A DNA stretch of 35,494 nt from a virus, in the IMG/VR virus record IMGVR_UViG_3300031758_000262, positions 1-35,494 of that record, one strand, 5' to 3'. A program made the position numbers and the translations under genes. The notes under the pieces were generated by a model, which worked only from the letters and a program-made list of their open reading frames with translations, ran no database searches and was not told the origin of the DNA. Positions within the stretch are counted from its first letter, which is position 1; every line of letters begins with the position of its first letter. Positions 4,907 through 35,399 of this stretch are shown here, piece after piece.

Positions 4907-4926
4907 ATTGATATTTATCCTATGCG

Positions 4927-4941: not shown

Positions 4942-4960
4942 GGGGCCTCGAAATGTCTCT

Positions 4961-4989
4961 GAAACTAAAGATCGATTCCACATATAAAA
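4961..4989 (+). promoter_or_regulatory. Putative promoter for gp44 (GAAACT-N15-ATATAAAA)
   Basis: GAAACT (4961-4966) and ATATAAAA (4982-4989) are separated by 15 bases, so the TATAAA hexamer starts 16 bases after GAAACT. The same two elements with exactly the same spacing precede the topoisomerase gene (23909) and, in a variant form, the 28888 gene. The start codon is 27 bases downstream of it. Confidence 0.45.
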
Positions 4990-5016
4990 GATAGCAACAA
5001 CAAAAAACAGAAAAAC

Positions 5017-5976: not shown

Positions 5977-5979
5977 TAG

Positions 5980-6008
5980 TTTCTGTTGTCGCTTATTTTA
6001 ACTATAAT
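5980..6008 (+). promoter_or_regulatory. Putative promoter before the 5' nuclease (TTTCTG-N17-TATAAT)
   Basis: TTTCTG (5980-5985), a 17-base gap and TATAAT (6003-6008) give sigma-70-like geometry. The intergenic sequence before 22808 aligns with this one without gaps from the TTTCTG to the ATG, with TTTCTG, TCG and ACTATA conserved. The -10 is only five bases from the ATG, so a transcript from it would be nearly leaderless. Confidence 0.4.
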
Positions 6009-6013
6009 TAAAC

Positions 6014-7222: not shown

Positions 7223-7234
7223 AATAAATAACAC

Positions 7235-7648: not shown

Positions 7649-8312
7649 CGCCAGACGGTTCGATTTTCCTTTAGTGATAGAGATGCCTCTATACACTCGA
7701 AATCACATTGACTCTTATCTGTTAAAGGATTTGATAGAAAAGTGTCATGGGATTAGAGACCCTCACCAAAAGAACGATTTCTATTTCTCAGTGACTGAGA
7801 TCATGGACGTTTTGAAGCTGAAAAAGTATTCTACCCTCATCGATTCTTTCTCCAAGACCAAAGACATGGATCTTCTGTCCAACGGAAATTCAGTCTATTT
7901 CATTCACAATCTCATACAGCACTATCATAACTTAACTCTGCTGAAGATCAAACCGATGAAGTCAGAGTCGTTTGTAGCAGTTGGAGATGCGATAGACGTC
8001 TTTTCTTACATGTTTAGAATATCCTATGGGATCTTGGATTTTTCAAAGTACTTAAGCCCTAGTAGGTTAACGATGCTTAACCGAGTATTTTTAGAGAGAG
8101 GGTTTTTGTCTAATAAGTATCTGCTCAGAAAGTCTTATTTTAACATACAGGCTTCAACTTTGATGGAGCTCTTTCAAGATTACGAGCCAGATAGTCCTCA
8201 GAAAATGGACTTCATTAATCAAGTCTCAGACGTACTCTTCGACATTATCGATCCTAAGATCGAACAAGACAACCCGTCGATCCTCGTGAAGACGGACTAT
8301 AACTTCCTCTAG
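7632..8312 (+). CDS. Hypothetical protein, replication-block end
   Basis: A 226-residue, mostly helical protein with no motif I recognise. It begins inside the end of the gp62-like gene (17-base overlap), so the two are probably translationally coupled. It contains many aromatic and Leu-rich helices, no cysteine pairs, no membrane segments and no Walker or nuclease motif. The centre (about residues 110-150) holds RLTMLNRVFLERGF, which is encoded by DNA containing a GGTTAA/TTAACC inverted repeat. The next gene is a virion gene with its own late promoter, so this one closes the replication unit. It does not resemble T4 regA, gp33 or gp55 by eye. Confidence 0.65.
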   Translation: MEVVDSARRFDFPLVIEMPLYTRNHIDSYLLKDLIEKCHGIRDPHQKNDFYFSVTEIMDVLKLKKYSTLIDSFSKTKDMDLLSNGNSVYFIHNLIQHYHNLTLLKIKPMKSESFVAVGDAIDVFSYMFRISYGILDFSKYLSPSRLTMLNRVFLERGFLSNKYLLRKSYFNIQASTLMELFQDYEPDSPQKMDFINQVSDVLFDIIDPKIEQDNPSILVKTDYNFL

Positions 8313-8313
8313 G

Positions 8314-8323
8314 GAATATATAG
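8314..8323 (+). promoter_or_regulatory. Putative late promoter (GAATATATAG)
   Basis: This decamer is identical to those at 2001 and 18570 and begins two bases after the preceding stop codon. It lies 19 bases before the ATG at 8343. It marks the switch from replication genes to the virion and packaging block. Confidence 0.55.
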
Positions 8324-8342
8324 ACAAAATCATCATCTTTAG

Positions 8343-10292
8343 ATGGCCGTAAATGGACGCACAGTCGACGCAATCGGCGATTCGATAATCATTTCTCTAG
8401 TTTCTCCCTATTTAAGGGTCAGGAGCGTTACAGGTTTTGTCGATCATGTCATCGGCGAAGACACAGTAAATTATTTCGATAAAGAATTCAGATGGTCTAC
8501 TGACAATGTGACTTATTCTGACTATCAAGAGCTGAACAGCAGCAATTTGCTGGCTCTGAACTTAAATCCAAATAACCCTTTTTGGATCCAGTATCGTTAT
8601 ACTGTAGTTGCTCTAGAAACAGGGCATGAGATGACTTTTGAATCTATCTCTTTAGAGGTTCTCACCGAAGAAGGCACTCTGGTAATGGTTCCTCAATATG
8701 AATGTTGCGATAACTCACCGAATATATGCAGCAATCTAGTGATAGAATGTTGCCCTGACAGAGTTTGGAATCCTTACAATATAGGAACTGGAGTCAACAC
8801 GTACAAGATGTTGAGCCAGGTAGTCTCTAACATTTTTGGATTCTGCGTTCAATACTATAAGACAGAAGCTGACCAGAGAAGCAGAGACGTCATCTTAAAA
8901 GAGTACAGTCTTTTTAACGTGATGGAGGAAGCTGAAGTGAAGATACTCGTCCCTGATAATGCTCTTCCTACTCGTGAGATCATGTTTAATCCTCTGATGA
9001 TGGATTATGCGATGGACTCCTTTGAAATTCACATTGTGAAGACTGAGTTTGAAAAAGTTTTCGGTAGAGGAACTCACCCAGCCGAAGGTGATTATCTCTA
9101 TTTCCCAATCATGCGGAAGATGTATCAGGTAAACAGCTTAGCAAACCCTGACGATTTCATGTATTCTGCTAGTTATTGGAGAGTAGGAATCGTCACTTAC
9201 CAACAATCTGCTAATTTTCAATTCCCTGATGTCAATATCGAGGAATCTACTAATGATCTCATATCGAGTCTTGATACTGAATTTGGTGCAGAAGCTGAGG
9301 CTGAACAGGTTCAGACTGCAAAACCTAATGAGTACAGAAGAGTAGGCACCGGATCCAATGATTACATCAGAAGAGTTCTCAATAAGAAGTTGGTCATCAG
9401 AGACGACAAAATATACAACAACTGGACCATCATCGCGAAGAACTATTATGATCTATCTTCAATACCTGCTAAAACCGAAGCTCTAACATATCGTTACGAG
9501 TACGGTATTAATGCTGATGAAGACAGATCCATCAATTTTTGGTTCAGACCTAAGTTTATTAAACCTGTCTATTCTAACATGCAGATTAGCACACTGGCTT
9601 CTTCTGCAACAGGAAAGACTGTAGTCACTACTGTGCAAACGCCTTCTCTTTCTCCAGGAGATATCGTGGTTCTATCAGGAACTGCAGATTATGACGGAGC
9701 TTCGATCGTCTTGGAAGTCAGCGATGGAGATTTTACTATTAGCAGAGATTTTATCTCTAACGGTCTAAGAAACAATCCTAAAGCATTCAAAGAAGAGACT
9801 TGTGGATTCTTAGTCTACGATTCTGAGACTGCTAATTATTTCCTTCTTTCTTACTCACAAGACTTCTTTATCGTCAAGATAGAAGAGAACTATTTTTACT
9901 TTGATCTCAGAGGTAAAGCAATGCTCCTAAAAGACAGATGGTATGCAGTAGTTCTCAACATTTCTAATTCTTTCGATCAACTTAGTCTCTTCATCTGGGA
10001 ATCTCAAGCTCAGACTGGACTCAGCGATCCAACCAAAACTGCAGATCTCGGCAATATCTATTCTCTTACAATACCTCTAACTTCAAAAATAGAGCTACCT
10101 GACGGAGATAGATGGAGGCTGCTAGGATGCAATATGCATCTGACTAACCTTAGGATCTTTGTCAAACCGATTGAAATAGACCAACAATCATTAGTGTTAT
10201 CGCAATATGTAGTAGCTGACAATCAGCTGGCTGACGTGATAGACAACGCTTCACCAGAATTAAGATTAGCAACAGTAACGAATCCAAGATAA
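8343..10292 (+). CDS. Large virion structural protein, possibly neck or head-tail joining
   Basis: A 649-residue beta-rich protein without Walker or catalytic motifs. Residues 1-115 look like an Ig or fibronectin-type domain. Residues 121-137 hold a compact cysteine cluster (CC-x6-C-x6-CC). The middle part (about 235-305, with FGRGTHPAEGDYLYFP and a Tyr-rich strand region) recalls T4-type neck proteins, and an acidic linker follows. The C-terminal part (about 395-620, containing INFWFRPKF and RWYAVVLNIS) looks like a concanavalin/LamG-type jelly roll. In T4 the neck genes 13-15 lie directly before the terminase genes 16 and 17, as this gene does, so a neck or connector role is plausible. A decoration or fibre-like protein is an alternative. 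Confidence 0.75.
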   Translation: MAVNGRTVDAIGDSIIISLVSPYLRVRSVTGFVDHVIGEDTVNYFDKEFRWSTDNVTYSDYQELNSSNLLALNLNPNNPFWIQYRYTVVALETGHEMTFESISLEVLTEEGTLVMVPQYECCDNSPNICSNLVIECCPDRVWNPYNIGTGVNTYKMLSQVVSNIFGFCVQYYKTEADQRSRDVILKEYSLFNVMEEAEVKILVPDNALPTREIMFNPLMMDYAMDSFEIHIVKTEFEKVFGRGTHPAEGDYLYFPIMRKMYQVNSLANPDDFMYSASYWRVGIVTYQQSANFQFPDVNIEESTNDLISSLDTEFGAEAEAEQVQTAKPNEYRRVGTGSNDYIRRVLNKKLVIRDDKIYNNWTIIAKNYYDLSSIPAKTEALTYRYEYGINADEDRSINFWFRPKFIKPVYSNMQISTLASSATGKTVVTTVQTPSLSPGDIVVLSGTADYDGASIVLEVSDGDFTISRDFISNGLRNNPKAFKEETCGFLVYDSETANYFLLSYSQDFFIVKIEENYFYFDLRGKAMLLKDRWYAVVLNISNSFDQLSLFIWESQAQTGLSDPTKTADLGNIYSLTIPLTSKIELPDGDRWRLLGCNMHLTNLRIFVKPIEIDQQSLVLSQYVVADNQLADVIDNASPELRLATVTNPR

Positions 10293-10293
10293 G

Positions 10294-10959
10294 ATGCAAG
10301 AATTATTCTACGGAAACCCCCTCCTCTATCAGAAAGAGATCATGATCTCTCAGGAGCTCAGTATTTTAATGAATAAGATCAAGAGCGAAAACCCCCAAAT
10401 TTGGAACGCCTGGGTGAGCAGTTTTCCTCCACAGCCTAATTCTGAGATAGTCGAGGAAGATCTCCTCGATATGATAAAAGAAATTGAAAAGCAGACTCCT
10501 GCTGATGTTTCTTTCGTTAATGAAGCAGAAGATGACAAAGAAAAACTTTTTGTCAAAATGATGAAAGAAAAAGGAATTGAAATCAGCGAAGGCGAGCTTA
10601 AAGAGATCACATATTATCTGGATCCCATTACAATGTGGCTCAAATATCACTTCAATTATCCTAGGCCATATCAAGTAGCTTATTTTAGAAGTGTACCTTT
10701 GTACCCGAGCCAATCCACTAATGCTAATAGTCCTTCGTATCCTTCGGGTCATTCTATAGACAGTCTTTGCATTGGTGTGATTTTGTCGAAAAAATATCCT
10801 GAACATAAAGAAGCTATCATGGCTCTTGCTTATAGAATATCAATGAGCAGACATATTTCAGGAATTCATTTCTCATTTGACAAATCTTTCGGAGAGTCAA
10901 TTGGAATTTACATAGGAGAGAATTATTCAGAATTTTTAACCGAGATATCTAGAGGATAG
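10294..10959 (+). CDS. PAP2-family phosphatase (vanadium haloperoxidase-type fold)
   Basis: A 221-residue protein carrying all three signatures of the PAP2/class A acid phosphatase superfamily: K-x6-RP (K117, R124, P125), PSGH (150-153, with catalytic His153) and SRxxxGxHxxxD (S185, R186, G190, H192, D196). The active site appears intact. No clear signal peptide or transmembrane helices are seen, so it looks soluble, like class A acid phosphatases, rather than a membrane lipid phosphatase. The first 100 residues are helical and acidic. It starts two bases after the preceding stop, between a structural gene and the terminase, so it is probably expressed late. Substrate is unknown; phosphomonoesters, nucleotides or lipid phosphates are possible. 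Confidence 0.85.
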   Translation: MQELFYGNPLLYQKEIMISQELSILMNKIKSENPQIWNAWVSSFPPQPNSEIVEEDLLDMIKEIEKQTPADVSFVNEAEDDKEKLFVKMMKEKGIEISEGELKEITYYLDPITMWLKYHFNYPRPYQVAYFRSVPLYPSQSTNANSPSYPSGHSIDSLCIGVILSKKYPEHKEAIMALAYRISMSRHISGIHFSFDKSFGESIGIYIGENYSEFLTEISRG

Positions 10960-10980
10960 ATATTCTCATATCGCAAATTT

Positions 10981-11739
10981 ATGTCAAAGAAAAATTTAAG
11001 GAACAGCATCAGCGAGCTACTAGACGACGACCTCCCTGATGAGGTTGACATTCCGTCAGAAGATTTAGATGATCTCAGAGACCAGAGACCAGTCACTTCT
11101 TATGATACGATGAGAAACGGCGCTTATGCCAAAGCAAAGAGAGTAATGGATGGTCTCTTAAAGCTCTATCTGTCACAAGAGATCATCGAAGAACAGGAGT
11201 ACATTAAAGCTCGCGTTGAACTCGATAAAATGTCTCTCGGAGCTTTAATCTTTCAAATGGAAACTGCCGAAAGAGCGATCATCACAATGCTAGACAATAT
11301 CGACAGCGGTGAAATGCACCCTAGAATGTTTGAAGTTTTAGGAGGTCTGCAAAAGACGTTATTGGATATCGTCAAGAGCCAAACCATGTATCTGATGGCC
11401 TCAGAAGAAAACATGAAAAAGCTCAGTAGAGATATTGATGTCTACAAACCGCAGTACAAAGCTATCGCAACTGAAAAAACCGGAAACGCAGGGCTGATCA
11501 GTTCTCGTGGCACTAAAGAATTGATGAGAAGCATCAGAGCAGAGATTCAAGAAGTTGAAGACGCTGATGCTGAAACAGAGACTATATCAGAATCAGAATC
11601 AATTTCTAGAAATCTGATGGAATATGATCCTCCTTTCGAAAGTGCTAAGATTAAAAGAGTAGGCGAAGAAGAATTTTCAGATGATGAAGAAGATTCTGAC
11701 GAGAACTTTGACGAAGAAGATAACGAATTTGGACTATAA
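10981..11739 (+). CDS. gp16: Terminase small subunit, gp16-like
   Basis: A 252-residue protein directly upstream of and overlapping (TAATG) the large terminase gene, the canonical place for gp16. Acidic N- and C-terminal tails flank a helical core (about residues 40-150) with repeated amphipathic helices suited to the ring-forming coiled coil of small terminases. The last 40 residues are almost entirely Asp, Glu and Ser. It would recognise or regulate DNA for packaging by gp17. The identification rests on position, size and helical build, as gp16 sequences diverge strongly; T4 gp16 is 164 residues. Confidence 0.72.
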   Translation: MSKKNLRNSISELLDDDLPDEVDIPSEDLDDLRDQRPVTSYDTMRNGAYAKAKRVMDGLLKLYLSQEIIEEQEYIKARVELDKMSLGALIFQMETAERAIITMLDNIDSGEMHPRMFEVLGGLQKTLLDIVKSQTMYLMASEENMKKLSRDIDVYKPQYKAIATEKTGNAGLISSRGTKELMRSIRAEIQEVEDADAETETISESESISRNLMEYDPPFESAKIKRVGEEEFSDDEEDSDENFDEEDNEFGL

Positions 11740-13559
11740 TGCCAGCACAATACAAACCAAGTGAGGTAGAGATCACTCTTCCAAAAAACGAGAGCGAAGA
11801 GAGAATATCTTGGTCCACCGAGAAGGTAGAGAAATTACTGACATCGATGGACGATGGCTATAAGCCTAGAGGAGGAGTACCTTTTTATGACGGTAACCCT
11901 ACTCTAAGAAAAGGCAATATCCTTTTTGATTATACTCCTCACGAAATGGATGAGATCAAGAAGTGCGCAGCTGATATCTGTTATTTCGCTAACAACTACT
12001 GCACAGTAATGACAGATGAAGGTCTGAGAACTATCGGCCTTAGAGACTATCAATTCGACATGTTGGAACATTTCAAAGCAAACCGTTTCAGCATTTGTCT
12101 AGCCAGTCGTCAGATCGGAAAGACGATCTGTTCATCCATCTATATTGCATGGTACGTCCTTTTCAATTTTGATAGAAATGCTCTTATTCTCTCCAACAAA
12201 GGAGCGACAACAAGAGAGATCATCGATAAAGCCAAAGTCATTCTTGACAACTTGCCCTTCTTTATGAAGCCGGGCATCGTTAAGAACGACGTCTTTAACA
12301 TGAAATTTGATAATGGATGTCGAATCATCGGTCAAAGTACGACAAAGAAAGCCGCGATCGGTTTTACCATCCACATGTTATTCATGGATGAGTTTGCTCA
12401 CATTCATCCGAGCTTCTTGGATACTTTCTATGAAAACGTATACCCTACAATCTCATCTTCCAAAGTTTCTCGAGTAATCATCACGAGTACTCCGAACGGC
12501 TTTAACAAATTCTATGACATTTATAGAATGGCTGTTCAAGGCCGCAGTGAATATAGACCTTTTAGAGTTGATTGGTGGCAAGTTCCTGGTAGAGACGAAG
12601 ATTGGATGCATCGAGAAGTTGCAAACTTAGGTTCTGAAGAAGCATTCAATAGACAATATGGAAACCAGTTCATTGCTAGCTCTAATCTTCTACTAGGACC
12701 TGAATCTATCAAGAGGCTGCAGAAGAAACAAAAAACATATGTTCACCACGAATTCTTCGAGCTTGATGATCTAGAGATCAATTATAGAGATCTCGTCTGG
12801 GATCCAGACTTTGACATTAGAATGATCGAAGAAGAAGGAACGTACTGGGCTTTCTCAGTAGACATCGCAGAAGGCAACGGCGGAGACTATTCCGTCATTA
12901 ACATCTTTTCTGTAGAACCGATGGCTGCTGCAGACATCAAAAAGATCAAAAACCCTGGAAGCTTCATTGAGCTCTTCGGATTAAAACAGATAGGAGTTTT
13001 TAGAAGTAACCAGCACAGCATTGAAGATTTCAGTAAGATCTTATATGTGCTTTCTATCGGGATTTTCAACTCAGAGAACGTAAAGATGGTAATTGAATGG
13101 AATATGTTCGGTTCGGAGCTGATACGTAGAATGCAGACAATCTTTCCATCTAAGAACGAATTCGATGAAGAGATGGTGGTCAAATTTAAGCATCGAAACG
13201 ATGCTCGTACGTCTTCTTTCGGTCTAAAGCTAAAATCTGACAATAAAGCTATATTCTGTCAGAACTTCAAAAAATATGTCAACATTGGTCGAATAACAAT
13301 CACGAACAAAGACACCATCGAAGAATCGATAAGCTTCGGTAAGACCCCTAGCGGAAGATACGAAGGGCAGTTAGGAAACGATGATCTGGTAATGTCCAGC
13401 ATTAACGTTACAGAGTTCTTTCACACCACGGATTTTTCTGATTTCGTGGAAGAAAAGTTTGATCTATTAGATCCAACAATACAAAAAGTGATGGACGATG
13501 CCCTTTCTAAGTCTCGAGATGAAGGAAATCTTTACTTTGATATTTATGATCTGGTGTAA
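11739..13559 (+). CDS. gp17: Terminase large subunit, T4 gp17 family
   Basis: A 606-residue packaging motor, nearly the length of T4 gp17 (610). The ATPase domain has the adenine-binding LRDYQ (101-105), Walker A SRQIGKT (123-129), Walker B MLFMDE (213-218) and the coupling motif TSTPNG (249-254). The C-terminal RNase H-fold nuclease begins with VDIAEGNGGDYS (D375 and D383), and a conserved MVIEWN segment follows; further acidic residues (GNDDLVM) lie near the end. It translocates DNA into the prohead and cuts concatemers. The start codon overlaps the gp16 stop, indicating coupled translation. Confidence 0.96.
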   Translation: MPAQYKPSEVEITLPKNESEERISWSTEKVEKLLTSMDDGYKPRGGVPFYDGNPTLRKGNILFDYTPHEMDEIKKCAADICYFANNYCTVMTDEGLRTIGLRDYQFDMLEHFKANRFSICLASRQIGKTICSSIYIAWYVLFNFDRNALILSNKGATTREIIDKAKVILDNLPFFMKPGIVKNDVFNMKFDNGCRIIGQSTTKKAAIGFTIHMLFMDEFAHIHPSFLDTFYENVYPTISSSKVSRVIITSTPNGFNKFYDIYRMAVQGRSEYRPFRVDWWQVPGRDEDWMHREVANLGSEEAFNRQYGNQFIASSNLLLGPESIKRLQKKQKTYVHHEFFELDDLEINYRDLVWDPDFDIRMIEEEGTYWAFSVDIAEGNGGDYSVINIFSVEPMAAADIKKIKNPGSFIELFGLKQIGVFRSNQHSIEDFSKILYVLSIGIFNSENVKMVIEWNMFGSELIRRMQTIFPSKNEFDEEMVVKFKHRNDARTSSFGLKLKSDNKAIFCQNFKKYVNIGRITITNKDTIEESISFGKTPSGRYEGQLGNDDLVMSSINVTEFFHTTDFSDFVEEKFDLLDPTIQKVMDDALSKSRDEGNLYFDIYDLV

Positions 13560-13590
13560 CTTCTTTTTGAAAGTTCTTCCCGGATCCAAA

Positions 13591-13599
13591 GATATATAG
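13591..13599 (+). promoter_or_regulatory. Putative late promoter (GATATATAG)
   Basis: GATATATAG differs by a missing A from the GAATATATAG decamer seen elsewhere. It lies 16 bases before the sheath ATG and 31 bases after the gp17 stop. It would drive sheath and tube up to the terminator at 17389. Confidence 0.5.
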
Positions 13600-13615
13600 A
13601 AAAAAATTAAGAAAA

Positions 13616-16600
13616 ATGGCATTGAGTCCTCAAATAGCAGCTTTCAGATCGGCTGGCGTTTACAGACTGGAATTCGATAAAAGCCAGACTGTGGCTATTC
13701 CCGCCGAGCAACTGAGACTCGTCATTGGTTTCTCTAGAAAAGGACCGTTCAACACTCCAGTTTTCTGCCCTGATACTTCATTCTTCACGGCAGTATTCGG
13801 AGACATCAACAGAGTTGATGAGAGAAAAGGAAGCTTCTTCCACAGAAGCTGCTTGGCAGCTTTGGAGAGAGGTCCTATCCTCGCTCTTAACCTCTGGAGA
13901 TTGGACAATTCTACCGATGGAACCGGTGATTACGACGAAGCGTACCTCTTCAGTACGAGCTCAACAGAAGCCAACGAAGGCTTCACAACAGAGGCTTTGT
14001 ACTCTGGTTATTTCAATCAAGACAAATTCTGGTTCCCAAGCACGGATTCTTTCTTGAATAACGTAGGAGCTACAGACAACACTCCTTTTAACGACCTCTT
14101 CAACTTGGTTAATATCGGAAGTAAGCAAGTATCTGTACTTGTTAGAAAAGCAGCTCCAGAAAACGTGAGAGGCTTCCAGATCAAGGCACAAGATTGGTAT
14201 GGTCCGGCTAACGTTCCGGCATTCCTTAATCCAGAGAGTTTCATCTCTGACTTTATGGTTGATGTGTTCCTCTACAACGGTAACTACGGTGGAGATCCTA
14301 CCGCTGTTTACCCTTATGAGAGATTCTCATCAGATCCTACTTTCGCTAGATACTTTGACAAACAACAAGGTCTTAAGAGAAGAGTATCTGTAACAGACAC
14401 TTCTGATACTTACTTGGAGCAGTTTAACAACTTACCTCAGGTTGGTTTGGTAGCAGTCTACACAGGATGCCTCATCCCAGGATTCACTGATCTCAATGGA
14501 AATAACTTATACATTGAAGATCTGATCAACGCAGACACTCCATCAACTGGTCTTTTCTGCGCGGTCAACGAAGCAATGTTTGATCTCGGTGAACTTCTCG
14601 ACGGTGTCGATAAAGGTCTCGATCTTATCGGTCACGAACTCGAGAGAGTCAATCCAAAAACCATTGACTTCCTTTCTTACAAGGCGACTATCGCATCTGA
14701 TCTTAGCTACGAATCTGGAGCAACTGCTCTAAGAACTGTTAGCTTAGCAGGTGTGACATTTACAGCAAATACTGACGGTAACTACGACTTGTTGGCTTCA
14801 GCTACTTCAGCTGCAGCAGCATACAACGTCTTCAGAAGCTTGGCAGAAAACTCTACTGGAACGGTTGGAGACTTCTTGATCAATGCAGACGGAGATTTGG
14901 CAATTCCAGTAACCGAAGTTACTGTAACTGCTAGCTACGTATTAGTTACAGTATCAGGCGCTAATATCACTCTTCCAACTGGAGCAGATACTCCTTTCGA
15001 TGGTCTCGGTACTTTAAGCTACATCAAAGTAGCTGATATGAACTGGGTTACTCAGAGAAGCGATAACGGCGACACTGGAACTATCATCTGTGGACCTTCT
15101 TCACAAATGTATGAAGACGTTTCAGATGGCGTTCTTACTGACGGTGATAGAGCAGTATTTGGATCTACCATCTCTGCTTCTCAAGTTCTTTACTTAGATT
15201 TCAATCCTTTGACTTACGGTTACCTCGTTTACGATTTAGGTGGATTGCCAGTCAACATTGAAATTTCTGATAGCACTTACGACATTCCTACATTCATCAC
15301 TAATGCTTTTGCAGATGCTGACTTCCAGGATTTGATCACTGATGACGCAGACTTTGGCATCAACCAAACTGGAGAGTTCTTCTTCGATACTGCTGACGAT
15401 GCTTACGCTCAGGGTACTTTTGGAGTTCAATCTTTCAAAGGTTCTCTTAACAACAGCATTACAGTTCTCGAATATAGCGGAACTCCTGGATCTATCCTCC
15501 AGCAGAACGAGATCATCGTATCTGCAGATGATGCAGCTTATGTAGCAGTAGGAAAATATCTTGTTCAATCAGCAGGATCTTCAACGACTCCTTCTAGACT
15601 TACTTACATTAAAGAAGTAGTCGGAATCAGTAATTTCACACCTGGTGTGAATGCTCTCAAAGTTGTCTGCGAAGGGCCAATCCTCATTAAGAGCATCGGT
15701 GCAGTAAATACTGCAGAAGCTTACACTGCCATCACTGAATGGGTAGACTACTACAATATGTTTACTCTTGATGGATTTGAGCTCGGAGCTTACAATCTTC
15801 CTAATGGAAGTAATGAGCAGCAGAACAATATCCTTTATGATACTCTCGGTGGAACAAAGCTCTTCCAAGCTCTTATCGACAAGGATAACATCGCTTACAG
15901 ATACATCGTTGATACTTTCGCTAACGGTATCGAAGCAAACTCTAAAGCGATCTACTTCCAGCTTGCTAAGAACAGACAGAATGCTTTCGCAATCGTCAAC
16001 GCTCCATCTGTAGAAAACTTCAAGAAGAGCACTGATCCAAGTTTCTTAAACTTGCTCGGCCAATTCGATACGAAGTATGTCGCAGAAGGTGGTGACTTGG
16101 CTAAGAATCCTACAGTAAGATACACTCTTCCAGGAGTGACTCAAGGATCTAGCTACGGAGCTTTCTATTCTCCTTTCTTAACAGTAAGAGAGAACGGAGC
16201 TAACATTCAGGTTCCTCCAGCTGGATATGTTTCTAATAACTACATTGACAAATACACTACTGCCTTCCCATGGTCAATCGTGGCTGGTAACAGAAGAGGT
16301 ATCGTCGGTGGTAGAGGAGTGATCGGAGTAGAATACAACTACGACAAGAGCGACAGAGATTACATCGAGCCGTTCGGACTTAACCCGATCATCTTCCAAA
16401 ATGGAACAGGTCTAGTGATCTTCGCTAACAAAACAGCTCAACAAAATGTACAAAGTGCACTTTCAGCAGCTCACGTTAGAGAAGTAATGATCTACATCCA
16501 AGACGGTTTAGCAGCGATCTTGAAGAATTATCTCTTCGAATTCAACACTGCTCAGACTAGATTGGAGATCAAGACTCTCGCGGATAACTTCATGGCGACA

Positions 16601-27240: not shown

Positions 27241-27490
27241 TCAACAGATGCTGATGATTCAGCAGTACCTCAAAGATTCTAAAGGCGTTTCTTGCGAAAA
27301 GTGTAACCACCATCTCTTCGTAGAGAAATTTGCTTTGAGAAAAGTTAGCAGACTGATCACCGGATCTCCTAGTGACACTGTAATACCTGTTCCAGTTTTT
27401 GCATGCAGCGCATGTGGTCACGTAAACTCTGAATTTGCACCAAAAGAATTCTCTCTCACTGATGAGGCTTCTGATCAAATTTCCGACTAG
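27230..27490 (+). CDS. Small zinc-ribbon protein
   Basis: An 86-residue protein with two CxxC knuckles: C22/C25 (SCEKCNHH) and C59/C62 (ACSACGHVN). The spacing of 33 residues between them, with beta-type sequence in between, suits a zinc ribbon. No other domain is visible. It starts inside the end of gp52 (11-base overlap) and ends inside the next gene, so it belongs to the topoisomerase unit. Function is unknown; nucleic-acid or protein binding is likely from the fold. Confidence 0.7.
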   Translation: MNDNQQMLMIQQYLKDSKGVSCEKCNHHLFVEKFALRKVSRLITGSPSDTVIPVPVFACSACGHVNSEFAPKEFSLTDEASDQISD

Positions 27491-28841
27491 AGGTCGGAGA
27501 GATCTATTCTTCTCGACGTTCGATAAGTTTCATCAACTTTCGACGAGCGGTCGAGTCATTTATTTAGTCAGCATTGACGAAGACGATTCTGTAATGAACT
27601 CGGACGAAGTCAAATCGCTGATCAGAAGCTATCCCAATACAACCTTGACGGTAGGCGCGAGCAAGAACAAAATTGACGCGCTGAACAGAGATTTAGATTC
27701 CTTCTCTGAAGACTGGGATGTGATAGTGCTCGCAGCAGATGATACAGTACCAGCAGTTCTCGGCTATGATCAAATCATCTTAGATGAGATGAAAACTCAC
27801 TACCCTGACACTGACGGCGTTTTACATTTCAATGACGGCTTTTGGGGTAGAAGATTGAACACTCAATGCATTCTAGGAAAAAGATACTATCAAAGATTCG
27901 GATATGTCTATCATCCTAGCTATTCTTACGTCTATTGCGATAACGATTTTATGGATCTAGCCTACCTACTGGGCAAGCAGACTTATTTTGACAGAGTGAT
28001 CATCAAACACGAGCACCCTGATCTTTATGGTGGTAACACTGACATGATCCACCAGAAAAATTCACAATACGATTCCATTGACAAAGCTGTTTTTGAGGCT
28101 AGAAAGGAAAGACTCTTTGACATAGATCGAAAAAGAAAGATCAAGATAGTTCATCTGCTGTTAAAGCCTCTAGACGGACCTTACGGAGATAAGCAGAAAT
28201 TGTCCATAGAAAAATGGTCAGAAGTCAAGCAATACGTCTCAGCTTACACACAGCTTTTCAGTTTTCCGAATAGAACTGAGCTGCCTGTAGAAGAATGCGC
28301 AGATCCAAGCATGATCAGAGATTCTCAGCCTGCAGATGGAAGCCCTTGGCTTTCTTATGGACATTACGGAGCATATCAGGCTCATCGTAGAGCACTATTG
28401 GAAGAATTCAGCGAAGATTTAGATGCTCTCGTCGTGATAGAAGGTGATGTAATTTTTAACATTTCTCCAGCTGACATGGCTTTTAGACTTCATCATGCTC
28501 TAGAATTTGCTGAAAGCCACCAAGGTTCTCTAGTTACTTTTGCTAACGTTGGATATGGGTTGGCTTCTGATGCTTCCAAGAGAGATACTTCAATTCCGAT
28601 GGGGCCTTACACCCAGATAGATCATTTCATCACCGCTCACTGCTACATGGTTCTTAAGAACGAGAAAAAGAGCATCCAACACAAGCTCATAAATGAGAAG
28701 TGGCATGCTTGGGACATCTGGCTCTATTGGAACTATGACAAGAGAGTACCGATATTCCGCACACCAGAACCTCTAGTCTTTGAACCCGAAGGATTTTCGA
28801 TGATTGACTACAAGACTAAAGAAATTAACGTAAAGCTTTGA
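27462..28841 (+). CDS. Two-domain glycosyltransferase (GT2-like plus GT25-like)
   Basis: A 459-residue protein from the ATG at 27462. Residues 1-205 form a GT-A-type domain starting RLLIKFPTRGRR, with VSIDEDD, a WDVIVLAADDTVP segment (probable metal-binding DD) and a late conserved HPDLYGGN. Residues about 225-459 resemble family 25 transferases: IVHLLLKPLDGP at the start, GHYGAYQAHRRAL, then LVVIEGDVIF where the family usually has EDD, and YMVLKN near the end. EGD in place of EDD may alter metal binding. The target could be DNA, virion protein or a cell-surface sugar. A TTG at 27435 would extend it by nine residues, but the domain starts naturally at the ATG. It overlaps the zinc-ribbon gene by 29 bases. 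Confidence 0.8.
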   Translation: MRLLIKFPTRGRRDLFFSTFDKFHQLSTSGRVIYLVSIDEDDSVMNSDEVKSLIRSYPNTTLTVGASKNKIDALNRDLDSFSEDWDVIVLAADDTVPAVLGYDQIILDEMKTHYPDTDGVLHFNDGFWGRRLNTQCILGKRYYQRFGYVYHPSYSYVYCDNDFMDLAYLLGKQTYFDRVIIKHEHPDLYGGNTDMIHQKNSQYDSIDKAVFEARKERLFDIDRKRKIKIVHLLLKPLDGPYGDKQKLSIEKWSEVKQYVSAYTQLFSFPNRTELPVEECADPSMIRDSQPADGSPWLSYGHYGAYQAHRRALLEEFSEDLDALVVIEGDVIFNISPADMAFRLHHALEFAESHQGSLVTFANVGYGLASDASKRDTSIPMGPYTQIDHFITAHCYMVLKNEKKSIQHKLINEKWHAWDIWLYWNYDKRVPIFRTPEPLVFEPEGFSMIDYKTKEINVKL

Positions 28842-29654: not shown

Positions 29655-30131
29655 ATGAACAGAATCATCTTAGTCGGAAAGGCAGCTTCTGGTAAAGATC
29701 ATCTGAGAAAGAGATTAGAAAACAGAGGTCTCACCTACGCAGTTTCATATACAACACGCCCTCCTCGCCCTGGAGAAGTCCACGAAGTCGATTACATTTT
29801 CATTTCTGAAGAGAAATTCTCAGAAATGATAGAAAAAGACGAGTGGTACGAATGGGTCTCTTTTAACGGTTGGAAGTATGGTACTTCTAGAATCCAATTC
29901 GAAAAAGACGATCTTTTCATCATGACGCCTGGAGGAATCTCACACATATCTGAAGACGAAAGAAAGAAGAGCTTTATCATCTTTTTAGACGTTGATCAAG
30001 AAAAAAGAAGACAGAGATTAGCCGAGAGAATCATGCCAGGAGATTCAGTAGAGAGAAGAATAATCGCGGATGAGGAAGACTTCAAAGACTTCACCACCTA
30101 CGACTTAAAAATAACAAATGACGATTTTTGA
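29655..30131 (+). CDS. Guanylate kinase-like nucleoside monophosphate kinase
   Basis: A 158-residue P-loop kinase with GKAASGKD (8-15) and the guanylate-kinase signature TTRPPRPGE (33-41), then VDYIFIS and a lid-like Arg-rich region (EKRRQRLAERI) before a final Asp/Glu-rich helix. It is shorter than bacterial Gmk (about 200) but keeps the nucleotide- and NMP-binding motifs. It would phosphorylate dGMP/GMP or a related deoxynucleotide for the phage dNTP pool. T4 uses one broad dNMP kinase (gp1); here a Gmk-like and a Tmk-like enzyme may share that role. It overlaps the next gene by 14 bases. Confidence 0.85.
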   Translation: MNRIILVGKAASGKDHLRKRLENRGLTYAVSYTTRPPRPGEVHEVDYIFISEEKFSEMIEKDEWYEWVSFNGWKYGTSRIQFEKDDLFIMTPGGISHISEDERKKSFIIFLDVDQEKRRQRLAERIMPGDSVERRIIADEEDFKDFTTYDLKITNDDF

Positions 30132-30537
30132 TGGAATAGTCTTTTCAGAAGAAGACTTAAAAGACAAAGAAAGATTGGAAATGATGGTAGAATCAGAATC
30201 AGTTAGAATCTACCAATCAGACGAAGCACGAAAAGGAAGAAGTCTCGAGGACATTCGTAATAAAGTCCGTCAAGGAAAAATCGCAGAACTCTATCTCATA
30301 GAAAATTACGGTTACTCAGAATCAGACATCATGTGGCACGATCTCATCGATCCGATGGGAGATTACACTGAAGTCAAGGCATACTCTGGTCTCTGGGACG
30401 AACACGCACCCCAAGTCACTCGAGATTTGAAGAGATATAGAGCTATCTCTAAATTCAAGTCCAAGTGGTATCTACTTTTCTCTGTTGACAAGAGAAACTT
30501 TTACAAATTCATCGCTAAAATTAAAATAAAGGACTAA
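30118..30537 (+). CDS. PD-(D/E)XK-like nuclease candidate
   Basis: A 139-residue protein with the order of motifs expected of a restriction-endonuclease-like fold: GKIAE with Glu57 in a first helix, D75 (or D78) in a strand, then TEVKAYS with the E85-V-K87 catalytic pair, followed by a helix and the strand KWYLLFSV. The small size is typical of phage members. It could cleave host or unmodified DNA, or serve in recombination or repair. No target-recognition domain is seen. It is embedded between two nucleotide kinase genes, overlapping the first and one base before the second, in a block that may modify the phage DNA. Confidence 0.62.
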   Translation: MTIFDGIVFSEEDLKDKERLEMMVESESVRIYQSDEARKGRSLEDIRNKVRQGKIAELYLIENYGYSESDIMWHDLIDPMGDYTEVKAYSGLWDEHAPQVTRDLKRYRAISKFKSKWYLLFSVDKRNFYKFIAKIKIKD

Positions 30538-30538
30538 G

Positions 30539-31123
30539 ATGGCTCAGAAATACATCATCATCGAAGGTATGGATCGTTGCGGTAAAGACACTCAAATAGG
30601 TCTTATCCAGAAAAAGTTCAAAGATGAGACTTTCCACGTCTTTCATTATGCTAAAGTCCCCTTTAAGACGAAAGAAGATCATCTATCCTACAACCAACGT
30701 CTCTACCAAGACATGTTCAAGGTGATGTTTGAAAATCTCGGCTCTGGTAGGAATTTCATTTTTAACAGATCTCATTTAGGAGAATCTGTCTATTCTCCAA
30801 AGTACAGGGATTACAATGGTGATTATGTTTTCAACATTGAAAAGACCTTTGTAGATGCTCTCAAAGATCAACTGATGCTTATCGTTCTCGTCAATGTCCC
30901 TGACATATTGATGAGCAGAGATGATGGAAATTCTCTTTCTAACAAGAGAGAAGATATTTCTTATGAGAGATCAGCATTCATCAGAGGCTATGGTCTTAGT
31001 TCTATCCATCACAAGAGATTGATAGAATGCGGAGAGAGAAACATCGATTCGATCCACCAAGAGATCATAGAATTTATTCAAAAATCTTTAGAAACCGAAA
31101 CTCTTTATGAACAAATCGATTAA
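30539..31123 (+). CDS. Thymidylate kinase-like dNMP kinase
   Basis: A 194-residue P-loop kinase beginning YIIIEGMDRCGKDTQ (5-19), the dTMP kinase EGxDRxGKxTQ motif. NRSHLGESVY (about 76-85) occupies the place of the DR(Y/H) substrate motif, with Asn in place of Asp. LIVLVNVP and a lid region with Arg residues follow. It would phosphorylate dTMP, or, given the dCMP-hydroxymethylase-like enzyme right after it, possibly hydroxymethyl-dCMP, as T4 gp1 does. The latter is inference. It overlaps the next gene by 17 bases. Confidence 0.82.
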   Translation: MAQKYIIIEGMDRCGKDTQIGLIQKKFKDETFHVFHYAKVPFKTKEDHLSYNQRLYQDMFKVMFENLGSGRNFIFNRSHLGESVYSPKYRDYNGDYVFNIEKTFVDALKDQLMLIVLVNVPDILMSRDDGNSLSNKREDISYERSAFIRGYGLSSIHHKRLIECGERNIDSIHQEIIEFIQKSLETETLYEQID

Positions 31124-32018
31124 GGGTGAATCTTTCGCAGAATGTTACAGAGATCTTCTCTGGAATCTGATAGAGAACCCTGAGTATGCATGCGCACCAC
31201 GAGGAATGGTCATCAACGAAATAACTGATTTCAGTTTTACTTTTTCTAACCCTCTCCAATGTCTTTATGAAAATACGAGAAGAGGTAGTCAAGAAAAATA
31301 CATTGCTGCAGAATTCTTGTGGTATTTTGGAGGCAGACGAGATCTCGAATTCATCCAGAAATATGCTTCTTTTTGGAAGCAGGTCGCTAATCCGGATGGA
31401 ACATTAAACAGTGCTTACGGCTATCTTCTTTTTAACAGAAAGAATGATCACGGAAAGACACAGTGGGAATGGGCTTATGATTCTTTAGTCTCTGACAAAG
31501 ATACTCGTCAGGCCATAATGCACTTCAATACTCCCGATCATCAATGGAACGGTAACAAAGATTTTGTTTGTACCCTCTCTGGCATTTTCCAAATTCGAGA
31601 AAATAAACTAAATTTTACCATTACAATGAGGAGTAATGATGCCATATTAGGAACTGCCACTGACGTAGCTTTCTTCTGTGCTTTACAGACGCAAATGTGG
31701 AAGCTCCTCAGAAAAACATATTCTGATCTGGAGCTCGGAACTTATACGCATTTTGTTCACTCAATGCATATCTACGAAAGACATTTTGAATTAGTGAGAG
31801 AAATGTTAGACGAAGAATTTATTTCAATTGAACTTCCTCAGATGCAAGATGATCTCGTAGATCAAAAAGGAAAAGCTTCAGAATTTGTAGAGGCATATAT
31901 AGAACATCTCGAAGCAGGAAGCATTCTTCCTTCTTCTGAGAACAATAGCTTAGAACAATGGATAACGAAAAAACTCACAGCGTACCCTACCCAAATCAGC
32001 GTTACGACTGGCTCATAG
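31107..32018 (+). CDS. Thymidylate synthase family, probable dCMP hydroxymethylase
   Basis: A 303-residue enzyme of the thymidylate synthase fold. The catalytic cysteine is C155 in DFVCTL, almost the same as DFMCTN in T4 dCMP hydroxymethylase; thymidylate synthases usually have PPCH here. The phosphate-binding MRSND (174-178) also equals the T4 enzyme. Eleven residues after Arg175 lies Asp186, where thymidylate synthases have the Asn that selects dUMP and T4 dCMP hydroxymethylase has Asp. HIYERHF matches the T4 HVYSRHF. I therefore expect dCMP rather than dUMP as substrate, giving hydroxymethyl-dCMP. It is longer than T4 gp42 (246), with a C-terminal helical extension. A dCMP-methylating synthase is the alternative. 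The next gene starts 61 bases before its stop. Confidence 0.8.
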   Translation: MNKSIKGESFAECYRDLLWNLIENPEYACAPRGMVINEITDFSFTFSNPLQCLYENTRRGSQEKYIAAEFLWYFGGRRDLEFIQKYASFWKQVANPDGTLNSAYGYLLFNRKNDHGKTQWEWAYDSLVSDKDTRQAIMHFNTPDHQWNGNKDFVCTLSGIFQIRENKLNFTITMRSNDAILGTATDVAFFCALQTQMWKLLRKTYSDLELGTYTHFVHSMHIYERHFELVREMLDEEFISIELPQMQDDLVDQKGKASEFVEAYIEHLEAGSILPSSENNSLEQWITKKLTAYPTQISVTTGS

Positions 32019-33124
32019 TAGGATCAGGTCTAGCCGGAGCGGTATTTGCTCATGAAATGACTAAGGCTGGAAAAAAATGTCTAGTGATAGACAGAAGAAA
32101 AACTATCGGCGGTAACTGTTATACTGAGACTAAAGATGGAATTCCGATCCACGTATGGGGAGCTCATATCTTCCATACGAACTCTAAGAAAGTATGGGAT
32201 TGGGTCACTCAATTCACAGAGTTCAAAAAGTATCACCATCAGGTGAAGTGCTTTTATCAAGGAAAGTACTACACCTTCCCGATCAATCTTAAGACTCTGA
32301 ACGAGATAGATGAGAACATTAAGACTCCGAAAGATGCAGAAGCATATTTCGAACAGTTCAAACACTTAATTTACGATCCTGCTTATGGCGATCTAACTGA
32401 AGACAATCTAGAGTCTCACTGCATCAAGCAGATCGGTCCAGATCTCTACGAAATTTTTGTAAAAGGCTACACTGAAAAGCAGTGGGGTACTAAACCAAAA
32501 AATCTTCCTTCTAGAATCATCAAGAGGATTCCTGTTCGTACTAATTTCGATGACACTTATTTTCATAATGCAGATTACTGTGGCATTCCAAAAAATGGCT
32601 ACACTGAAATTTTTGAAAATTGTTTAAAGGGCGTAGACGTCACACTTAATATAGACTATCACCTCAATAGAGAATTCTGGGATTCACAAGCTGAAAATGT
32701 TCTTTACACTGGTCCTTTGGATGAGTATTTCGGTTGGGACGAAGGAGAGCTCGAATGGAGAAGTCTTGAATTTGATACCAAGAGAGAAGAAGTTTCTGAT
32801 TATCAGGGCATGGCAGTGATCAATTACAATGAGGCTGAAATACCTTGGACTCGAATCTTGGAACATAAACATTTCGGTGGTCACTCTTCAGAAGTTACCT
32901 GGGTGACTAAAGAGTACCCTGCAGCTTGGAAGAGAGGAAGCGAAGCATATTACCCCATTGCAGACGATAAGAACAACAATTTGCACGGCAAATACGTGGC
33001 TCGCTTCAAAGAGACCGGTAAACACTCTTGCGGTAGATTAGCTGATTACAAGTACTATGACATGGATCAAGTTATCGGATCAAGTCTAGCCCTGGTGGAA
33101 AGAATCTTAAAAAACGAAAAATGA
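31958..33124 (+). CDS. glf: UDP-galactopyranose mutase (Glf)
   Basis: A 388-residue flavoenzyme that interconverts UDP-galactopyranose and UDP-galactofuranose (some relatives act on UDP-arabinose). All hallmarks are present: dinucleotide-binding GSGLAG (22-27), IGGNCY (50-55), HVWGAHIFHT (65-74), GYTEKQWGT, RIPVR with DDTYF, YTGPLDEYFGW, WRSLEFD, WTRILEHKHF and a late EYP. Length is close to bacterial Glf (about 370-390). The ATG at 31958 is the only Met before the flavin loop, which makes a 61-base overlap with the preceding hydroxymethylase gene. A phage mutase next to glycosyltransferases implies a furanose sugar used on DNA, virion or host glycan. Confidence 0.95.
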   Translation: MDNEKTHSVPYPNQRYDWLIVGSGLAGAVFAHEMTKAGKKCLVIDRRKTIGGNCYTETKDGIPIHVWGAHIFHTNSKKVWDWVTQFTEFKKYHHQVKCFYQGKYYTFPINLKTLNEIDENIKTPKDAEAYFEQFKHLIYDPAYGDLTEDNLESHCIKQIGPDLYEIFVKGYTEKQWGTKPKNLPSRIIKRIPVRTNFDDTYFHNADYCGIPKNGYTEIFENCLKGVDVTLNIDYHLNREFWDSQAENVLYTGPLDEYFGWDEGELEWRSLEFDTKREEVSDYQGMAVINYNEAEIPWTRILEHKHFGGHSSEVTWVTKEYPAAWKRGSEAYYPIADDKNNNLHGKYVARFKETGKHSCGRLADYKYYDMDQVIGSSLALVERILKNEK

Positions 33125-34278
33125 AAATAGCAAATTTTAACGAACCTGATGAAAGCGTCAAATCGGTGATGCTATTCTATTTTGGGAAGTATCCCAAGAA
33201 GACTAAACCGGCTAAAGACATCACTCTTCCAATCAGGCTATGGCCTAAAGCGAAGTACTACATTCGCTGTACGACCAAAGGCAACATCGGCAAGAACAAT
33301 CTTCTTTATTTTAGAGAGCTGTTCAGAGGACACCAGTTCGAACTCGTAGAAGACATGGTCTCAGCTGACATGCTCTTCATCCACCACGAAAACTATAATG
33401 CTTTTGGTGGAGTAGTCAGAGAATGCTGTGTAGATTTTGCCAGAGCTCTCAAAGAATGGAAAAAGCCTGCAACAGTCTTCTATAACGATGAACTTTTCTC
33501 TGGTTTCTATGATCTTAGAGACTACATTGAAAATAGAGCAAAGAACGAGAACTTCTTAATTAAGAATCCAGGCATACTCGACAAAGTCAAAAGAAAAGAA
33601 GATTGGACCAACGTCACCCTGTTGATGAATGAGAACAAAATTACAGATTGGGCTGATGAACATGTATGGGACGGACCGGTCAAAGATCAAATTACAGTGT
33701 CTTATTTGTCTGACATTATTCTCTATGATCTCCCTACTTCAGGTATCAGAGGCAAGTCAGAATATGAGAAGAAAGGAGTCTATGTTCCTCTCTTCACTGC
33801 AGAGAGAATTTCTGTCTGTGATAAATTATTCAACGGCAACGTGGACATTACCTTCGCCGGATCTCGATCAGATGAATTGAAAGAAAACATCAGAGGTAAC
33901 GGCAAGTACATAAATAACATAGAACTACCTAATTTTCTCAGAAAGTTCGATTGGACGATCTACATCGGAAAAGGCAAACAGTCTTCTTATTTAGGAGCAA
34001 CTTTTTACGAGCCTCTTCTAAAAGGTCTTCCAGTTTTTGTCTGGACGGAAACTGATAAGATGAAGAAAGTTTTCGGAGATCTAGATTGTTACTTTAGTAA
34101 CGAATCAGAACTCAAAGCATTGGTAGAAAAATGGAATATGAGAGAGCTCTTCAAAGAACAAGTGAGAAGAATTTTTAATTCTGAAGTCGAGGACTCTCCG
34201 ATAGAAATTGAATCTGAAATCCCTACACCTTCTCCGGAACCAGTTCCAGAGAAAAAGAAAATAATGTCTCTTTTCTAA
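33121..34278 (+). CDS. GT-B-type glycosyltransferase with clamp-binding-like tail (1)
   Basis: A 385-residue protein without a close named match. The N-terminal half (1-170) is alpha/beta with SADMLFIHHENYN, and the C-terminal half has VDITFAGSRSDELKENI, DWTIYIGKGKQSS and TFYEPLLKGLPVFVW, the last like the donor-sugar-binding end of GT-B transferases (in T4 alpha-glucosyltransferase a comparable segment ends IPVFW). Residues about 355-376 are Pro/Glu-rich, and the chain ends EKKKIMSLF. That end is nearly the same as that of the next gene and resembles sliding-clamp-binding peptides. It overlaps glf by four bases (ATGA). Probable role: transfer of a sugar, perhaps to hydroxymethylated DNA. Confidence 0.72.
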   Translation: MKIANFNEPDESVKSVMLFYFGKYPKKTKPAKDITLPIRLWPKAKYYIRCTTKGNIGKNNLLYFRELFRGHQFELVEDMVSADMLFIHHENYNAFGGVVRECCVDFARALKEWKKPATVFYNDELFSGFYDLRDYIENRAKNENFLIKNPGILDKVKRKEDWTNVTLLMNENKITDWADEHVWDGPVKDQITVSYLSDIILYDLPTSGIRGKSEYEKKGVYVPLFTAERISVCDKLFNGNVDITFAGSRSDELKENIRGNGKYINNIELPNFLRKFDWTIYIGKGKQSSYLGATFYEPLLKGLPVFVWTETDKMKKVFGDLDCYFSNESELKALVEKWNMRELFKEQVRRIFNSEVEDSPIEIESEIPTPSPEPVPEKKKIMSLF

Positions 34279-35399
34279 TGATTGCAATTGTAAGAACTAG
34301 ACCGCCTTTCGCTCGAGTCGAATACGAACCGTATCATTTTTTAAGATGGACCTCACTTTTTCCTGAAAAGGAATTTGTCTGGCTTACCAAAAACCCTGAC
34401 AAGATCAAAGGGAGATTTGGAGTCGACAATTTTCCAGCCATTAGATCTTACGACATGGCTGATTATTTCGATTTTGACACGGTAGAAGAAAAGGTACAGT
34501 TCTTAGAAAAGGCAGTCTCTGACTTAGGCATCACTCAACTGATCACCATACACAACGACATCCGCTCTCAGTTTAAGAGCGGATCAGAAGAAAAAGGAAT
34601 TTCTTTCTTTGAGACTCAGAAGGTTCCTACTTTTGCTTCAGTGCGGTCTTTTTATGAAATGTCTTTCATCGGCTATCATTTAAGCAAGAGCCTTCCGACT
34701 CTTCACATCTTTGTCGATCCCCAAGAAGGACATTGGCACAAGATCAACGGAGCTGATGAGAAGAACTTTTTCTTCTATGAGAATTCTCGCATCAATGCTC
34801 AATACTTTCCTTTTGTCGAGTGGAGCTTTGCTCAAGAACTTGACAGAAAAAGAAAAAAGTCTAAGAAATTCTCTTTTGGATTCACGGTAGTTACAGAAGA
34901 CAGAGAGTCTCTCTACCACCAACTAACAGCGCTGAACGAGCATAACATCAACTTCCTGGTCAAATTTCCAAAATTGGACATTGATACCACAGTCAAGAGA
35001 TCAGATTATGCTCAAATGTTAGAACAGAGCGAGTTCACTCTGGTTATTCCTTCTTACGAAGATACGGATTTTTCTTCTATCAGATTCTGGGATGCTCTCA
35101 CTAAAGATTGTATACCGTTCGTTCTAGATAGCTGTCAATGGGAACAGGCTTTCATCGAACATCCTGAGATTTCACAGATTCTGAGAGAAGATCTTCTAGT
35201 CTCAGTAGAGACTGTAAAAGACAAGATAGAAAAAACTGATCACGCCTCTCTTCTCCAAAAGATAAAATCTACTTCAGATTGGAAAAAGCTGAAGAATAGA
35301 GAATGGTTCATCGAAAAATCGAAAGCTTTCTTTGAATCTCTAGCAGAGACTCCAAAAGCTGCTCCCATCAAAGAGAAGAAAATAATCTCACTTTTTTAA
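34278..35399 (+). CDS. GT-B-type glycosyltransferase with clamp-binding-like tail (2)
   Basis: A 373-residue protein distantly similar in plan to the preceding gene product. The N-terminal half includes LITIHNDIRSQF and IFVDPQEGHWHK. The C-terminal half has FSFGFTVVTEDRESLY, YAQMLEQSEFTLVIPSY and SSIRFWDALTKDCIPFVLD, close in form to the exostosin-type and other GT-B donor-binding segments. A Pro/Ala-containing linker precedes KEKKIISLF at the end. The start overlaps the upstream stop (TAATG). A 9-bp inverted repeat (ATCCGCTCT/AGAGCGGAT) lies within the coding sequence at 34560-34584. The two genes may have diverged from a common ancestor or acquired the same tail. Confidence 0.72.
   Translation: MIAIVRTRPPFARVEYEPYHFLRWTSLFPEKEFVWLTKNPDKIKGRFGVDNFPAIRSYDMADYFDFDTVEEKVQFLEKAVSDLGITQLITIHNDIRSQFKSGSEEKGISFFETQKVPTFASVRSFYEMSFIGYHLSKSLPTLHIFVDPQEGHWHKINGADEKNFFFYENSRINAQYFPFVEWSFAQELDRKRKKSKKFSFGFTVVTEDRESLYHQLTALNEHNINFLVKFPKLDIDTTVKRSDYAQMLEQSEFTLVIPSYEDTDFSSIRFWDALTKDCIPFVLDSCQWEQAFIEHPEISQILREDLLVSVETVKDKIEKTDHASLLQKIKSTSDWKKLKNREWFIEKSKAFFESLAETPKAAPIKEKKIISLF

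Follow-up and report, generated by a model that had tools for sequence, protein, structure and literature searches.

Phage T4 modifies the cytosine of its DNA through a pathway comprising a deoxycytidine monophosphate (dCMP) hydroxymethylase (gp42), a nucleotide kinase (gp1), and alpha- and beta-glucosyltransferases (beta-GT), with host UDP-glucose, a pyranose, as the sugar donor and without a mutase. Non-glucose sugars are known from the arabinosylation of RB69 and other Mosigvirus members and the pentosylation of Shewanella phage Thanatos, for which the phages carry donor genes beside their cytosine-modification genes. Here we analyze a seven-gene module (positions 29655-35399) of IMG/VR record IMGVR_UViG_3300031758_000262, the whole 35,494-base stretch of which is hereafter called the window; it is a partial contig of an uncultured bacterial virus, which we judged to be a T4-like contractile-tailed phage from head, tail, terminase, clamp-loader, and topoisomerase genes identified by eye. 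The module resembles the T4 pathway in combining a predicted dCMP hydroxymethylase, nucleotide kinases, and a candidate sugar transferase for hydroxymethylcytosine-containing DNA, and the RB69 and Thanatos systems in the apparent use of a non-glucose sugar with a phage-encoded donor gene; unlike T4, it includes a UDP-galactopyranose mutase (UGM). In the best-supported reading, which we consider probable, the phage would produce hydroxymethyl-deoxycytidine, build it into its DNA, and there link it to a furanose supplied by UGM, probably galactofuranose (Galf).

The assignment of the thymidylate synthase (TS)-family enzyme as a dCMP-type hydroxymethylase is strongly supported by every sequence test applied. 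The protein matches Thymidylat_synt (PF00303, 7e-22), and its best matches in PDB are the CMP 5-hydroxymethylase MilA (1.5e-24) and T4 gp42 (2.5e-18), with canonical TSs at 1e-10 or weaker, although its identity to gp42 is only ~26%. Asp186, at the position of pyrimidine specificity (177 in E. coli TS, 179 in T4), aligns with the Asp of T4 gp42, the SP8 dUMP enzyme having Asn; Thr156 (position 147), beside the catalytic Cys155, is likewise Thr in gp42 and not His. The Asp and the catalytic Cys are invariant in 100 of the 100 relatives examined, and in the MetaGPA study TS positions 177 (Asp) and 147 were the best two markers of contigs with modified cytosine (PMC8670742). The 160.9-kb genome G002, which contains the related locus L003 (see below), encodes a module enzyme with the same Asp/Thr combination (65% identical to that of the window in local alignment) and, as a second gene, a canonical TS in which the PPCH and LPFN motifs are present (PF00303, 3.5e-90), so the module enzyme is not the TS of that phage. 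Replacement of one Asn by Asp can be enough to turn TS into an enzyme that methylates dCMP (cited in PMC8670742), and the module enzyme might accordingly make 5-methyl-dCMP, or simply dTMP, in a virus whose DNA is not glycosylated. We regard this as very improbable: the nearest solved relatives are hydroxymethylases, the phage of L003 has its own canonical TS, and a methyl group would offer the linked transferases no hydroxyl.

The next gene encodes a mutase with the family signature (GLF, PF03275, 1.5e-68) and a Rossmann FAD motif (NAD_binding_8, 1e-19), which scores above the curated NCBIfam equivalog cutoff (TIGR00031, 357 versus 304 bits) and has E. coli UGM as its closest solved structure (1i8t, 1e-109). 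Trp176, Arg190, Arg194, Arg299, Tyr332, Arg360, and Tyr366 are invariant among seven phage UGMs; we take these to be active-site residues, and by their conservation the enzyme is catalytically intact. Upstream of the hydroxymethylase lie two kinase genes, Gmk-like (Guanylate_kin, PF00625, 4e-19; phrog_1815 guanylate kinase, 3e-36) and Tmk-like (Thymidylate_kin, PF02223, 2e-6; phrog_761, 4e-11). Homologues of the former are found upstream of the hydroxymethylase in L003, L115, L116, and L134, and homologues of the latter abut it in L002, L003, L004, L115, L116, and L134. Much of this had been anticipated in an earlier note made from the letters of the window: the seven co-directional genes are present where it placed them, overlapping or abutting with gaps of 1, -14, 1, -17, -61, -4, and -1 bases, the two kinases are confirmed by Pfam and PHROG profiles, the dCMP-hydroxymethylase residues by Asp186, Thr156, and the nearest solved relatives, and the mutase by PF03275, the TIGR00031 cutoff, and the conserved residues. 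Its PD-(D/E)XK-like nuclease, the small protein encoded between the kinases, was not confirmed; the protein has no significant match in Pfam, NCBIfam, or PDB, and the E..D..EVK pattern, the one basis for the label, is kept in the L003 homologue (38% identity).

The target of the sugar is addressed by comparison with related loci. The sixth gene of the module, GT1, occurs in four contigs, namely the window, L002, L003, and L004, each of which also carries a hydroxymethylase and a UGM. In L002, the order tmk-TS-UGM-GT1-GT2 is kept, with 65-80% protein identity to the window, and such conservation in independent contigs excludes a chance assembly of the module. The order in L003 is TS-GT1-GT2-thioesterase-UGM, and its UGM is only 29% identical to that of the window (local alignment). 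L004 is arranged as GT1-UGM-sulfotransferase-tmk-TS; its UGM belongs to a third lineage, and its hydroxymethylase is a replacement closer to the T4 type (38% identity to gp42). In a maximum-likelihood tree, the UGMs of the four contigs fall in three lineages, and the approximately unbiased (AU) test rejected a single clade of the four (p 2e-80) as well as subsets of them (1e-4 and 1e-56). At least two exchanges of the UGM partner have therefore occurred without the set breaking up, which points to a shared function of its members. In L004, a DAHP/KDO8P-synthase-family gene (9270-10004; PF00793, 4e-47) overlaps GT1 and a sulfotransferase gene (12210-13160; PF03567, 6e-13) abuts UGM, and from the presence of these genes the L004 sugar may be further elaborated.

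Hydroxymethylase, transferase, and UGM genes also meet in phages unrelated to these four. In Lactobacillus phage ATCCB (34336-37391), a TS-family hydroxymethylase of the Asp type, a T4-type beta-GT (PF09198, 9e-22; 31% identity to T4 b-gt over the full length), and UGM are consecutive genes in the GenBank record. A second lineage (L063, L070, L072, L074, and L091; ~5300-14200), whose gene order was read in detail for L063, L072, and L074, has DNA polymerase III alpha, hydroxymethylase, UGM, a glycosyltransferase-like protein, a kinase, and a GalE-like epimerase, with the hydroxymethylase and UGM genes overlapping; this operon possibly encodes a complete pathway from UDP-glucose to Galf-DNA. 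L087 has a gene of the beta-GT family that shares 4 bases with UGM, and Aeromonas phage Aes012 encodes a gp42 homologue (57%) and UGM in one phage. When UGMs are labeled as hydroxymethylase-linked or not on a 78-sequence tree, the label has to change five times, and well-supported branches force at least 4 of these changes. As judged from these trees and gene neighborhoods, the pairing of hydroxymethylase or beta-GT with UGM arose independently in unrelated phages.

Further relatives of the module are informative in another way. L134 has the gmk-tmk-hydroxymethylase order and the downstream backbone of L003 without UGM, GT1, and GT2; in L116, other glycosyltransferases occupy the UGM/GT1/GT2 slot; and in L115, which matches LR756500 (L005), a beta-GT-family gene lies ~1.4 kb after the hydroxymethylase. 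Together, the three gene arrangements suggest that the hydroxymethylation core stays fixed and that the sugar genes beside it can be swapped as a cassette.

Several observations weigh against DNA as the target of the sugar, and the first of them speak for a rival explanation, in which the hydroxymethylase and kinases modify cytosine and UGM, GT1, and GT2, merely their neighbors, make a Galf-containing glycan for the surface of the virion or host. The classical role of UGM is in cell-surface glycans, and the majority of phage UGMs have no hydroxymethylase beside them: a TS-family gene is nearby in only 10 of the 80 sampled UGM loci, with three of the 10 being weak matches ~5 kb off. Co-occurrence, proposed in the earlier note as a check, holds for GT1, which is found with hydroxymethylase and UGM in four cases out of four, whereas UGM itself is mostly located elsewhere. 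In Rhizobium/Sinorhizobium phages, UGM adjoins a lysis amidase gene, near tail-fibre genes, and the L003 genome contains a separate apparent glycan cluster (GMD, epimerases, GT2-family glycosyltransferases, and FkbM). This cluster, however, is ~15 kb from the UGM of that genome, which sits within the hydroxymethylase module; moreover, UGM has been replaced at least twice and is still accompanied by GT1 and the hydroxymethylase, true homologues of T4 beta-GT adjoin UGM in ATCCB and L087, and relatives of GT2 adjoin beta-GT-like and hydroxymethylase genes. We therefore consider a surface glycan unlikely. On the same side of the balance, GT1 has no match in Pfam, PHROG, NCBIfam, or PDB and no detectable kinship to any glycosyltransferase, and it could prove not to be one; the AlphaFold models of GT1 and GT2 are unusable (predicted local distance difference test, pLDDT, 41 and 47; alignments of 4 and 3 sequences); the substrate of UGM could be UDP-arabinopyranose rather than UDP-galactose; and nucleoside data for these phages were not found. 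Because the module is conserved, UGM has been independently replaced, and the pairs recur in unrelated phages, the comparative evidence nevertheless favors DNA as the target.

Two lines of evidence were discarded. UGM alone was rejected as a marker of DNA modification, most UGM loci being without a hydroxymethylase, and the UGMs of Rhizobium/Agrobacterium phages were set aside as supporting cases, the gene not being adjacent to cytosine genes. DNA of Atu_ph04 is resistant to nine restriction enzymes, and the authors of that work annotate a dCMP hydroxymethyltransferase (PMC6630229); a T4 gp42 query against the Atu_ph04 record returned nothing at the threshold applied.

The last two genes of the module had been described as encoding GT-B-like proteins, and structure prediction gave no usable model for either. 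For GT1, which belongs to no recognized family, the description was not confirmed. No relative of it was found among 50,697 phage records; the L004 protein as a query retrieved from these records one match (E value 0.3), with no module gene detected near it, and a GT1 alignment searched against IMG/VR recovered the same three other contigs only, four being known in all. A GT1 profile compared with GT2, beta-GT, and other candidate transferases gave nothing significant. GT2 is weakly but repeatedly GT47-like, to judge from profile matches: it scores just below the curated cutoff of Exostosin_GT47 (PF03016, 5.8e-8; 32.8 versus 33.4 bits), two close homologues match the same family (9.5e-6 and 1e-5; 25.6 and 25.5 bits), and a profile comparison with EXT1 gave an E value of 0.046. 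For GT2, a GT-B fold is at most indicated; in Foldseek, many GT-B enzymes are among the matches of its model, with template modeling (TM) scores <0.3, and the Foldseek results are uninformative for both models. Homology to the T4 b-gt family was not supported, with hhalign yielding 4% for GT1 and 3% for GT2 and neither protein matching PF09198; as to T4 a-gt, searches of Pfam, PHROG, and PDB linked neither protein to a glucosyltransferase, a dedicated comparison with a T4 a-gt profile not being part of these searches.

Agathobaculum phage AB434P2 and Pseudoalteromonas phage XG4 both have a GT2 relative beside genes for a hydroxymethylase and a beta-GT-like protein. In the latter (vB_Psh_XG4; L010, 100-6580), the unannotated cluster comprises a gp42-like hydroxymethylase, a HAD-like protein, a nucleoside triphosphate (NTP)-transferase/kinase fusion, and beta-GT-like, GT2-like, and C5-methylase-like proteins, and resembles the pentosylation clusters of RB69 and Thanatos. 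A gene of the C5-cytosine methylase family directly follows GT2 or its relative in L002 (12282-13478; PF00145, 3e-18) and L010 (5363-6580; 2e-20); it is not at that place in the window, where the partial open reading frame (ORF) after GT2 resembles the gene after the L002 methylase.

The XG4 neighborhood bears on the identity of the sugar. The NTP-transferase/kinase fusion adjoining its GT2 relative is of the type proposed to make UDP-pentose, and arabinosylation of cytosine is known from RB69 (PMC6024577); UGM could then use UDP-arabinopyranose, and a sugar such as arabinofuranose (or a different furanose) would make the system a furanose variant of RB69-type arabinosylation. We find this rather improbable and prefer galactofuranose, because UGM passes the UDP-galactose mutase equivalog cutoff, a GalE-like epimerase accompanies UGM in the L063 lineage, and the window module has no recognized pentose-activating gene; this last point is weak evidence from a partial contig, and the set is not decisive.

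Under the preferred reading, in which Galf is attached to DNA, the TS-family enzyme would convert dCMP to 5-hydroxymethyl-dCMP, as its residues and nearest solved relatives suggest. The Tmk-like or Gmk-like kinase, or both, would phosphorylate this product for incorporation by the phage polymerase, an arrangement proposed from gene order and the logic of T4 gp1. UGM, as a member of its family, is expected to convert host UDP-galactopyranose to UDP-galactofuranose, and GT1 is the candidate enzyme for moving the furanose onto the hydroxymethyl group in DNA. GT2 may add a second sugar or serve as an alternative DNA transferase. The predicted product is 5-(galactofuranosyl-oxymethyl)-deoxycytidine, perhaps bearing a disaccharide. 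By analogy with T4 and RB69, such DNA may resist restriction and certain CRISPR nucleases, and the modification would probably protect the virus against bacterial defences. The earlier proposal of cytosine replacement combined with a furanosyl sugar thus gains from module conservation, UGM replacement, and the recurrence of the pairs, short of proof. The broader proposition, that several unrelated phage lineages place a hexofuranose (galactofuranose) on cytosine via a hydroxymethyl linker by means of hydroxymethylase, UGM, and the GT1 family, with GT2 extending it to a disaccharide, is evenly poised between holding and failing.

Genes of the module and an upstream neighbor in the window
Feature	Coordinates	Strand	Basis
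Gmk-like (d)NMP kinase; candidate hydroxymethyl-dCMP kinase or supporting nucleotide kinase	29655-30131	+	PF00625, phrog_1815
Small protein with E..D..EVK pattern; possible PD-(D/E)XK nuclease (unproven)	30118-30537	+	pattern
Tmk-like deoxynucleotide kinase	30539-31123	+	PF02223, phrog_761
TS-family pyrimidine hydroxymethylase, predicted dCMP type (Cys155 catalytic, Thr156, Asp186)	31107-32018	+	PF00303, PDB, residues
UDP-galactopyranose mutase (UGM); predicted UDP-furanose donor supply	31958-33124	+	PF03275, TIGR00031
GT1; candidate primary DNA glycosyltransferase, no family match	33121-34278	+	co-occurrence in four contigs
GT2; GT47/exostosin-like, candidate second transferase	34278-35399	+	PF03016, relatives' neighborhoods
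Upstream glycosyltransferase-like protein; membership in the module uncertain	27435-28841	+	phrog_14945 (3.5e-19)

For the upstream glycosyltransferase-like protein, L002 has a homologue of 62% identity immediately before the module, and further homologues are found in several UGM loci (L033, L045, L066, L067, L090, and L110). Elsewhere in the window, among replication genes on the opposite strand, the product of 4040-5059 (minus strand) matches phrog_4603, 'alpha-2,3-sialyltransferase' (3e-41). A conserved gene pair stands right after the module in L002 (13865-16268), L003 (14488-16942), and L004 (14476-16916), and probably corresponds to the two RimK/glutathione (GSH)-synthetase-like ATP-grasp proteins of the L003 genome scan. 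The topoisomerase large-subunit gene of L002 (460-4431) is interrupted by ~1.4 kb, which fits an intron, intein, or homing insertion. Finally, three contigs without UGM (L153, 8268-10861; L164, 8226-10873; L166, 8271-10861) contain two close TS-family genes, one of them divergent (E ~1e-15), together with a gmk homologue.

If the proposed pathway is correct, furanose joins the list of phage DNA modifications, GT1 represents a new family of DNA transferases, and host restriction enzymes and glycosylases that evolved against glucose may fail to recognize the furanose. Direct testing is possible because at least two sequenced isolates, ATCCB and Aes012, have both hydroxymethylase and UGM. Our search for literature on UGM, phages, and hydroxymethylcytosine found none, and it did not include Pyle et al. 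2024 (Cell Rep 114631), which deals with DNA glycosyltransferases encoded by viruses and could already cover such sugars. The earlier note did not know the furanosyl combination from described phages; no paper discussing it was found, but the GenBank record of ATCCB already holds hydroxymethylase, beta-GT, and UGM side by side. The type of pathway is known from T4 and RB69, and a furanose donor enzyme in a DNA-modification module is not described in the literature searched.

Set against the individual systems, the module shares with T4, in which genes 42 and b-gt are adjacent, the proximity of hydroxymethylase and transferase, and differs in that GT1 and GT2 are not recognizable BGT homologues and the hydroxymethylase is so distant from gp42. 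In RB69/Mosigvirus and Thanatos, the pentose donor is thought to be made by NTP-transferase/kinase and isomerase-like proteins, in place of which the window has UGM; neither the NTP-transferase/kinase fusion nor an arabinose-5-phosphate isomerase-like gene is among the scanned module genes of this partial contig, and Mosigvirus attaches its sugar to 5-hydroxy-deoxycytidine. The ATCCB locus likewise has a hydroxymethylase-type TS and UGM, together with a DNA beta-GT homologue, although ATCCB belongs to a different phage group (Tybeckvirinae) and has a recognizable T4-type beta-GT instead of GT1 and GT2. Bacterial UGM/galactofuranosyltransferase systems of lipopolysaccharide and cell wall also use UGM to supply UDP-Galf, but their acceptor is a surface glycan, whereas the neighbors of UGM in the window are nucleotide-modification genes.

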